Positions 19,668 through 38,526 of a stretch of DNA of 64,000 nucleotides are shown here, in pieces. Made by a program: the position numbers and the translations under genes. The first letter of the stretch is position 1, and the number at the start of each line of letters is the position of its first letter. This DNA is from Caulobacteraceae bacterium. GTDB lineage: Bacteria > Pseudomonadota > Alphaproteobacteria > Caulobacterales > Caulobacteraceae. Below the pieces are notes generated by a model. It saw only the letters and a program-made list of their open reading frames with translations. It had not been told where the DNA came from and ran no database searches. The stretch spans positions 1 through 64,000 of the forward strand of contig CANJXI010000008.1 in NCBI GenBank assembly GCA_947478785.1. Direction: 5' to 3'.

Positions 19668-19769
19668 TTAAGCGCCGACGAGGGCGGTGGCCGTGGCGAT
19701 CGTCAGGCCGAGGAACACGATGGCATAGGAGGCCAGGGTGTCGAGGGCGCGGTTCATTTGAAGCGACAT
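19668..19769 (-). CDS. Putative 33-aa membrane microprotein MSLQMNRALDTLASYAIVFLGLTIATATALVGA
   Basis: Start and stop read directly; AGAAGGA Shine-Dalgarno-like sequence upstream; one predicted TM helix; resembles 20000-20107. Confidence 0.6.
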   Translation of the reverse strand: MSLQMNRALDTLASYAIVFLGLTIATATALVGA

Positions 19770-19834
19770 GGTCCAGTTCCTTCTGTGTGGTTCCGGCGCC
19801 GGGGCCCGGTCGCCGCGTCCGATGTGGACAGTGC

Positions 19835-19853
19835 TTAGATAGCATCTATCTGA
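19835..19853. promoter_or_regulatory. Candidate operator TTAGATAG-CAT-CTATCTGA
   Basis: Near-perfect inverted repeat upstream of the 33-aa ORF. Confidence 0.5.
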
Positions 19854-19950
19854 ACGATGTCTAGATGACGATTTACAATGCACTGCTATGCATTTCTGCA
19901 TGCGCCTATAGCTGGGCTGTCAGCGACGTGCAGGCATGGCGGACACGAAA

Positions 19951-19976
19951 AAGGGGCCTCCGCGACGAGGCCCCTT
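19951..19976 (-). terminator. Rho-independent terminator for the 35-aa microprotein transcript
   Basis: AAGGGGCCTC-CGCGAC-GAGGCCCCTT, perfect 10-bp stem followed on the minus strand by a T-run (CCTTTTTCG). Confidence 0.8.
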
Positions 19977-19999
19977 CGATCAGCGCCGAACGGGGGAGG

Positions 20000-20107
20000 T
20001 CAGACGCCGACGGCGACCGCGAAGGCCGCGGAGATCGCCATCCCCAGGCCCAGGAAGAGGGCGGGGAAAAAGCGATCGAAAAAATAGGGTAGACGCGCGA
20101 GAGACAT
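20000..20107 (-). CDS. Putative 35-aa membrane microprotein MSLARLPYFFDRFFPALFLGLGMAISAAFAVAVGV
   Basis: Read directly from the sequence; AAAGGTG SD-like upstream, strong terminator downstream, single TM. Confidence 0.65.
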   Translation of the reverse strand: MSLARLPYFFDRFFPALFLGLGMAISAAFAVAVGV

Positions 20108-20166
20108 GACACACACCTTTGAGTTTGAACCCCTTGGGAGTGGGGACGTTTCTTATTTGAACAACG

Positions 20167-20219
20167 CTAAGATAGTGGATATCTAAGCGCCGTCAAGATA
20201 TCTATGCGGCGTTAAGATA
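20167..20219. promoter_or_regulatory. Cluster of TAAGATA/TATCTTA-like half sites (candidate TetR operator)
   Basis: CTAAGATA-gtgga-TATCTAAG (167-187), AAGATATCT (195-203), TTAAGATA (212-219) between microprotein and TetR. Confidence 0.55.
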
Positions 20220-20239
20220 AAGTTTAGGGTGGAAACCGA

Positions 20240-20863
20240 ATGAGTGACATCCCGGCCACAGACGCCCGACGTTATCACCACGGCGATCTCAGCCGCGCGC
20301 TGATCGACGCCGCCCGGCGGCTGCTGGAGGCGGAGGGCCAGAGCGCGCTCTCACTGCGCGCGGTGGCGCGGGAGGCGGGCGTCAGCCCGGCCGCGCCTTA
20401 TCACCACTTCAAGGACAAGGGCGAACTTCTGGACGCCGTGGCCCAGGAAGGCTGGACCCTGTTGGACGCGGCGCTGGTCAAGGCGAAGGCCGAGGCGCCC
20501 GACATCCATCAGGCCCTGACCGAGCTGGGCGTGGCCTATGTCTGTTTCGCCAGGGACAACCCCGCGCTCTATCGGGTCATGTACGACACCGCCCGAGAGA
20601 AAGAGGCCCTTCCGGAGCGGATGCAGAACGGCGAGGACAACTCCTATTCCAAGGTCCGCGACGTGCTCATCGAGGCCGGCGGCGACCCGAACGACTCCCT
20701 GGACCTGGAGCTGGCCACCAGCGCGGCCTGGTGTTCCGCCCACGGCCTGGCCGAGATGGCCGGTTTCAAGCAGTTCGACCACCTCAAGGACGCCTGTGGC
20801 GGCGAGACGGCGTTCTTCCGGGCGATCTTCAACCACATGGGGTTGGCCCCGAGGCGCCGCTGA
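20240..20863 (+). CDS. TetR/AcrR family transcriptional regulator
   Basis: YHHGDLSRALIDAARRLLEAEGQSALSLRAVAREAGVSPAAPYHHFKDKGELLDAVA. Confidence 0.95.
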   Translation: MSDIPATDARRYHHGDLSRALIDAARRLLEAEGQSALSLRAVAREAGVSPAAPYHHFKDKGELLDAVAQEGWTLLDAALVKAKAEAPDIHQALTELGVAYVCFARDNPALYRVMYDTAREKEALPERMQNGEDNSYSKVRDVLIEAGGDPNDSLDLELATSAAWCSAHGLAEMAGFKQFDHLKDACGGETAFFRAIFNHMGLAPRRR

Positions 20864-37590: not shown

Positions 37591-38526
37591 ATGAAGCTGC
37601 TGGCCGGCAACTCCAATCGCACGCTTGCCGAGGCCGTCGCCTCCCATCTGGATCTGCCGTTGACCAAGGCCCAGGTGAAGCGCTTCGCCGACAACGAGGT
37701 CTGGGTGACCATCGACGAGAACGTCCGCGGCGAGGACGTCTTCGTCATCCAGTCGACCAGCTATCCGGCCAACGACAATCTCATGGAGCTGCTGATCTGC
37801 ATCGACGCGCTGAAACGCGCCTCCGCCAGGCGGATCACCGCGGTGATGCCCTACTTCGGCTACGCGCGGCAGGACCGAAAGACCGGCGGCCGCACGCCGA
37901 TCTCGGCCAAGCTGGTGGCCAACCTGGTCACCCGGGCCGGCGCAGACCGGGTGCTGACCATGGATCTGCACTCCGGTCAGATCCAGGGCTTCTTCGACAT
38001 CCCCACCGACAACCTGCTCTCGGCGCCGATCCTCGCCCAGGACATCAAGGACCACCACAAGAAGACCAGCGAACTGATGATCGTTTCGCCCGACGTGGGC
38101 GGCGTGGTCCGCGCGCTGGCCGTCGCGACCCGGCTGAACGCCGAGCTCTCCATCGTCGACAAGCGCCGCTCGGGACCGGGCAAGAGCGAGGTCGCCAACA
38201 TCATCGGCGACGTGAAGGGCCGTCGCTGCATCCTGTTCGACGACATGATCGACGGCGGCGGCACGCTGACCAACGCCGCCCAGGCTCTGATCGACCACGG
38301 CGCGCTGGAGGTCTCGGCCTATGTCACCCACGGCGTGCTGTCGGGCGCAGCGGTGGAGCGGGTGAACGCCTCGATTCTCAAGGAACTGGTGATGACCGAT
38401 TCCATCCAGCCCCCGGACCGGGCCGCCGACGGCGGCAAGATCCGCTACGTGAGCTGCGACCGGCTCATCGGCGAGGCGATCCGCCGCATCGCCAATGAGG
38501 AGAGCGTGTCGAAACTGTTCGACTGA
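37591..38526 (+). CDS. prs: Ribose-phosphate pyrophosphokinase
   Basis: [67 protein letters not shown]. Confidence 0.97.

Follow-up and report, generated by a model that had tools for sequence, protein, structure and literature searches.

The 64,000-nucleotide stretch of Caulobacteraceae DNA analysed here (the window) carries two micro-ORFs, P1 and P2, on its minus strand, in the neighbourhood of a gene for a TetR-family regulator. Both micro-ORFs had been described in the first-pass annotation, and their coordinates and sequences were the same in our analysis, as was the divergent orientation of the TetR gene with respect to P2. Shine-Dalgarno-like sequences, also mentioned there, were located as AAGGA (about 19778-19782) before the P1 ATG and as AAAGG (20116-20120) before the P2 ATG. 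The strong terminator placed 3′ of P2 corresponds to a perfect 10-bp stem (19951-19960/19967-19976) followed by T's; it was absent from a simple terminator scan and was listed by a longer-stem scan. An operator pair common to the P1 and P2 promoters had not been part of that description. The positions of all features are listed in Table 1.

Table 1. Genes and predicted regulatory features of the P1/P2/tetR locus, in window coordinates
Feature	Position	Strand	Description
Micro-ORF P1	19668..19769	-	33 aa, MSLQMNRALDTLASYAIVFLGLTIATATALVGA; P1-like family, consensus NRxLDxxVSxAxVxLxLxLAGATAxxGA
Operator O1	19822..19840		ATGTGGACAGTGCTTAGAT on +; overlaps -10 of P1
P1 promoter	19836..19863	-	TAGACA - 16 bp - TATCTA; register to operators as in P2
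Operator O2	19848..19866		ATCTGAACGATGTCTAGAT on +; contains -35 of P1; 26 bp from O1
Intrinsic terminator after P2	19946..19976	-	10-11 bp GC-rich stem and T-run
Micro-ORF P2	20000..20107	-	35 aa, MSLARLPYFFDRFFPALFLGLGMAISAAFAVAVGV; P2-like family, consensus MSLAxFERLFDRxxPAxLLxLGLxxAAAxAxxG
P2 conserved Shine-Dalgarno leader and start	20105..20119	-	AAGGTGTGTGTCATG
P2 leader hairpin	20130..20145	-	CCCC ACTCCCAA GGGG in window; in relatives 5-8 bp covarying stem, CUCCCC loop
Operator O3	20155..20173		ATTTGAACAACGCTAAGAT on +; overlaps -10 of P2
P2 promoter	20169..20196	-	TTGACG - 16 bp - TATCTT
Operator O4	20181..20199		ATCTAAGCGCCGTCAAGAT on +; contains -35 of P2; 26 bp from O3
Operator O5	20200..20218		ATCTATGCGGCGTTAAGAT on +; 21 bp upstream of the tetR ATG; autoregulation predicted
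TetR-family regulator	20240..20863	+	TetR_N + TetR_C_33; divergent from P2; predicted to repress itself and the two micro-ORFs

The TetR regulator is present in 99/100 genomes of the window's genus. A locus was considered usable when it had enough sequence upstream of tetR, the opposite strand being searched, and two loci ended by contig ends were left out. All 89 usable loci carry one to three micro-ORFs of 30-41 aa that belong to one family and are divergent from TetR. Reading away from tetR, the architecture is P2-P1 in 44 loci, P2 alone in 23 and P2-P2 in 12, with P2-P2-P1 (7), P1 alone (2) and P2-P1-P1 (1) being rarer. The tandem pair reported in the first-pass annotation is therefore found in the window, but it is not universal, as the copy number varies from one to three per tetR locus.

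The median dN/dS was 0.32 for the first ORFs (P2 position) and 0.47 for the later ORFs, indicating purifying selection. Similarly, the in-frame pN/pS was 0.41 for first and 0.56 for later ORFs, against 1.29/1.76 and 1.06/1.77 when these sequences were read in their other two frames as a control. Conservation of the frames in relatives and the ratio of synonymous to non-synonymous changes had been suggested as a check; the frames are kept and dN/dS lies below 1. The outcome named beforehand as fatal, decayed fragments of a larger gene, did not materialize. Judged by sequence comparison, P1 and P2 are genuine genes. They are also paralogous at the profile level, since the P1-like and P2-like alignments match each other in a profile comparison with a probability of 95.7%.

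The peptides of the family carry a charged collar before the helix, typically R-x-x-D or ER-x-x-DR. The collar D is invariant in 28/28 sequences, and an R or K is found three residues before D in 143/161 micro-ORF sequences, the window's P2 being among the exceptions. The R/K-x-x-D motif is followed by a mostly uncharged hydrophobic stretch running to the C-terminus. The best 19-aa stretches of the two peptides have hydropathy values of 1.9 and 2.3, and AlphaFold2 modeled a single chain as one helix (residues 3-33, mean pLDDT 92.7), a result that bears on the fold of the lone peptide and not on partners. One predicted transmembrane helix per short peptide is a feature of single-span modulators. 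The charged N-terminal side, combined with the positive-inside rule, suggests an N-in/C-out topology, and the conserved collar residues suggest a specific contact. The peptides gave no significant match to Pfam, NCBIfam, PHROGs or PADLOC models, hence no homology to a curated small-protein family, and our literature search found no paper that describes the module. For Caulobacter crescentus, 94 new CDSs, mostly small, are reported by Schrader et al. 2014 (PMC4117421), and homologues of P1/P2 may be among these small CDSs.

The regulator combines a TetR_N helix-turn-helix (PF00440, E 6.5e-15, 55.1 bits vs a cutoff of 24) with a C-terminal ligand-binding-type domain (PF13305, TetR_C_33, 46.6 bits vs a cutoff of 26.8). 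Its AlphaFold2 model is all-helical and matches the fold of 3on2 (TM 0.74/0.78), a Rhodococcus TetR that is also the nearest solved structure by sequence (E 1.8e-30). The function of 3on2 is not assigned, therefore the ligand class is not readable from the fold; this approach was dropped, the nearest structures being either without assigned function or diverse. No match to the TetR at E <= 1e-40 came from genus g3 or from the remaining families of the order, and outside the family a class-level search returned only homologues of 39-45% identity.

Five palindromes with at most one mismatch to a 19-bp consensus (ATCTnnrCrnyGyynAGAT) were detected in the window, all of them at the two micro-ORF promoters and before tetR. 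Each micro-ORF promoter has two such palindromes, 26 bp apart, and a repeat search gave a 39-nt inverted match between the P1 and P2 promoters. The upstream palindrome contains the -35 element (in P2, TTGACG), and the -10 element TATCTT starts one base before the downstream palindrome, so that a bound pair of TetR dimers would cover both. A lone palindrome with two mismatches to the operator, ATCTGCACTCCGGTCAGAT, was also seen at window 37964-37982.

Among the promoters of the genus, 123/161 fit the pattern ATCT-N11-AGAT, 6-8 nt, ATCT-N15 exactly, with a spacing of 7 nt in 101. The outer letters of the operators are fixed by this search pattern, and the inner positions are free of it; at the latter, across 72 first and 51 later promoters, op1 shows little or no variation at C8, G12 and T14. 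The operator pair was also modelled over 45 nt. Run against the whole genome to which the window belongs, this model had matches confined to the promoters of the two micro-ORFs (E 2.5e-12 and 1.0e-11), each matched also as its reverse complement, and it has matches in 60/60 genomes of the genus. A large TetR regulon, for example one including an efflux pump, was rejected at the level of operator pairs, as only the two peptide promoters were returned by this model in the window's own genome at E up to 10.

Predicted sites at the target promoters and before the regulator's own gene, five in total, correspond to the arrangement expected of TetR-family operators. Their position and the co-occurrence of the genes suggest that TetR binds these palindromes. 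In addition, an element resembling ACATTGTAAAATGT is conserved in many relatives just upstream of the P1-type operator pair (window 19867-19890, minus strand); it is perhaps a degenerate third operator or the site of another regulator. The first-pass annotation had proposed a small regulated module of paralogous membrane peptides. Profile-level paralogy, one predicted hydrophobic helix per peptide, shared TetR-type operators and a TetR-micro-ORF co-occurrence that is strict across the loci compared all agree with that proposal.

The module extends beyond the genus of the window. A second genus has TetR in each of its 49 good genomes, and genera g22, g20 and g6 have one micro-ORF at the corresponding place in 40/40 loci examined. 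Across the family, the operator model has matches in 113/200 genomes and 10/22 genera. We fetched 20 of these operator matches, 19 of them from g2, g12, g15, g19 and g21. A TetR of 51-63% identity lies nearby in 19/20, and a micro-ORF of the P1/P2 type directly downstream of the operator in 17/20; at L310, L314 and L317, the strict script detected no micro-ORF at the operator match. This search, starting from the operator, is an independent route to the operator-plus-micro-ORF unit. By sequence, the complete module is seen in at least nine genera of one family, namely that of the window and eight others.

Operator-plus-micro-ORF units were also observed far from tetR, in G009, G051, G012, G002, G046, G013, G067, G068 and G032 (loci L214-L227, L230 and L231). 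Some of these distal units are at contig ends and are near-identical copies (G009 C1/C36, G051 C85/C63); units at contig ends may lie on repeats. The neighbours differ between distal units, the genes nearby including glycine-zipper, WLWP/PEP-CTERM, beta-lactamase-fold, EamA, thioesterase and adenylate cyclase genes. No conserved partner gene besides TetR was found, nor one among the neighbours of the distal units, and the search for a functional partner among these neighbours was abandoned, none being common to all. Proteins with WLWP/WMWP repeats are encoded near several distal units (L216 2255-3550, L218 5560-6915, L223 5776-7131, L224 1-566); they have a glycine-rich stretch where complete, and a PEP-CTERM motif was confirmed in the L216 protein. 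Secreted-looking glycine-zipper proteins were likewise noted by distal units (L218 3529-3921, L223 3248-3661, L224 5731-6102, L227 4631-5014), the one in L218 giving weak Rick_17kDa_Anti/YMGG matches. Finally, in three genomes of one clade (G049, G035 and G043) the operator pair directly precedes a DUF418 membrane-protein gene without an intervening micro-ORF (L228 4225-4311, L229 and L290), which gives the regulon a membrane-related look. In G043, the second half of the pair is degenerate.

With moderate confidence, we interpret the locus as a TetR-controlled membrane-micropeptide module. Once released from repression by TetR, its peptides most likely act as single-span modulators, either of the bilayer or of a complex in the inner membrane. 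TetR dimers would bind the palindromes and block RNA polymerase at the -35 and -10 elements, and TetR would limit its own synthesis via the palindrome before tetR. A small, probably lipophilic ligand would free TetR from its operators, upon which each peptide would be made from its own short mRNA and would insert N-in/C-out in the inner membrane. There, by helix packing, the peptides may modulate either the properties of the bilayer or a membrane protein complex, and so protect the envelope against the agent sensed by TetR. The mode of action could be likened to that of AcrZ- or YohP-type small membrane proteins. In this scheme we infer repression rather than activation, and likewise the ligand, the topology and the target.

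The peptides could instead be toxin-like, depolarizing or damaging the membrane, with TetR silencing them until a growth-arrest signal, comparable to peptides of the TisB/DinQ type that are under SOS or antisense control. Short hydrophobic single-helix peptides, present in several copies and apparently under tight double-operator control, would be compatible with such a role. Against it, however, almost all genomes of two genera have the peptides, which are apparently inherited vertically, no antitoxin ORF was identified, and the peptides have no PADLOC or PHROG match. At gathering score, Rfam shows only a tRNA in the window, thus no Rfam-listed antisense RNA, although an antisense RNA not yet described may exist. 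The conserved collar (D in 28/28) speaks for a specific contact more than for generic pore formation. We regard a toxin as improbable. Of the options raised in the first-pass annotation, namely toxin, stress protein and regulator of an envelope complex, it is the weakest, given this near-ubiquity and apparently vertical inheritance. Together with the conserved collar residues, which suggest a specific contact, these two features of the module lead us to prefer a modulator, be it of the bilayer or of a membrane complex, to a toxin.

The transcripts of P2-type units have features of their own. In these units a separate terminator is usual, and in most of the genus their leader has a hairpin that covaries. 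A terminator was found within 80 nt after the first ORF in 54/89 loci, vs 9/455 in the background. A CTCCC loop motif with a short flanking stem lies between the operator and the ribosome-binding site in 68/87 first leaders of the genus. In 52 distinct sequences, the 5-bp core of the hairpin is paired in 48-51, and the innermost pair is GC in 26, AT in 12, CG in 8 and TA in 3. Covariation in a MAFFT alignment of 50 sequences, picked by the loop motif and not by pairing, was 0.399 vs 0.194 in shuffles (reached by 0/500) and no more than 0.144 on sliding, with kinship among sequences being able to inflate such scores. The hairpin with its loop of anti-SD type is conserved in the genus and weak in the window copy, which has a 4-bp stem and a single-sequence z of -0.47, folding no better than shuffles. 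Most P1-type units lack it, as do most leaders of the second genus. Moreover, when one mismatch was allowed, AAGGTGTGTGTCATG was found almost only at micro-ORF units in the window's own and 17 other genomes of the genus, and reversed AAGGTGTGTGTCATG, used as a control, had no matches in the same 18 genomes. Two one-mismatch matches that were checked (G014 C66 and G006 C8) are unrelated.

These features raise the possibility of a dual-function transcript, in which the P2-type mRNA would also be a small RNA whose CUCCCC hairpin loop pairs with the Shine-Dalgarno sequences of other mRNAs. The frequency of the loop in first leaders, the paired core stem with its covarying innermost pair, a covariation reached by no shuffle, and a short transcript ending at its own terminator would all be in keeping with this function, which is compatible with the modulator reading. 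However, most P1-type units and most leaders of the second genus do without the hairpin, the stem in the window has decayed to 4 bp, and the hairpin may have a simpler role, such as protection of the 5′ end or adjustment of translation in cis. We consider this second function improbable. An extended form is also conceivable, if only as a long shot: the TetR, conserved across a bacterial family, would have a regulon composed almost only of micropeptides and multiplied genome-wide as complete units, each with a double operator, anti-SD leader hairpin, ORF and terminator, and each P2-type transcript would be both the mRNA for a membrane modulator and an anti-SD small RNA.

A short ORF followed by an intrinsic terminator could also be a leader peptide or attenuator acting in cis on the downstream gene. 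This is very improbable and was rejected: the amino-acid sequence of the whole helix is conserved rather than a codon run, the downstream genes vary between loci and distal copies, and the second unit comes with a separate promoter and separate operators. ORFs this short, missed by ORF callers, might conceivably have arisen by chance or be what is left of a decayed larger gene; both ideas were dismissed as scarcely credible, with lengths of 30-41 aa, frames and motifs kept across nine genera and dN/dS below 1.

Gene callers leave this part of the genome empty. The analysis places in it a conserved protein family together with a specific regulator and a defined operator, and makes the function directly testable. 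The predicted regulon of the modulator module is tiny, with two operator-pair sites in its own genome, and the operator pair can readily be used to search for more units. Should the peptides modulate the envelope, helices of ~35 residues would be the only conserved effectors of this response; if the dual-function regulon is true, it would be an envelope response without a conventional enzyme or pump as conserved effector.

Several known systems resemble parts of the module. AcrZ, KdpF and MgtS (PMC7267776 for AcrZ-AcrB) are similar in having about 30-50 aa, one hydrophobic helix and no enzymatic domain. They share no common sequence family with P1/P2, however, which have no adjoining transporter or pump and instead have a dedicated TetR and tandem or dispersed copies. 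The stress-induced YohP of E. coli (PMC12719787) is a tiny membrane protein without catalytic residues and could plausibly serve as a model for action on the state of the membrane. It differs in having 27 aa and in being tied to starvation and stationary phase, and neither TetR control nor a paralogous array is mentioned in the abstract. TisB and DinQ (PMC3567139 for DinQ), membrane-toxic peptides of the SOS response, are likewise short single-helix peptides under a repressor, but their control is by LexA and antisense RNA, not TetR, and the P1/P2 module is near-universal in its genera. For the leader, the nearest parallel is AbcR1/2, which has a 5′ hairpin exposing a CUCC-type loop; the loop, CUCCUCCC (aSD1 motif), pairs with Shine-Dalgarno sequences of mRNAs (PMC8844928). 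AbcR1/2 are trans-acting sRNAs, whereas the hairpin described here is the leader of a peptide gene. As for the regulator, 3on2 of Rhodococcus has the same TetR_N and TetR_C_33 domains as the window's TetR, its ligand and target not being assigned. TetR regulators and small membrane proteins are thus both already known, and what is new is a dedicated TetR with a predicted regulon almost limited to paralogous micropeptides.
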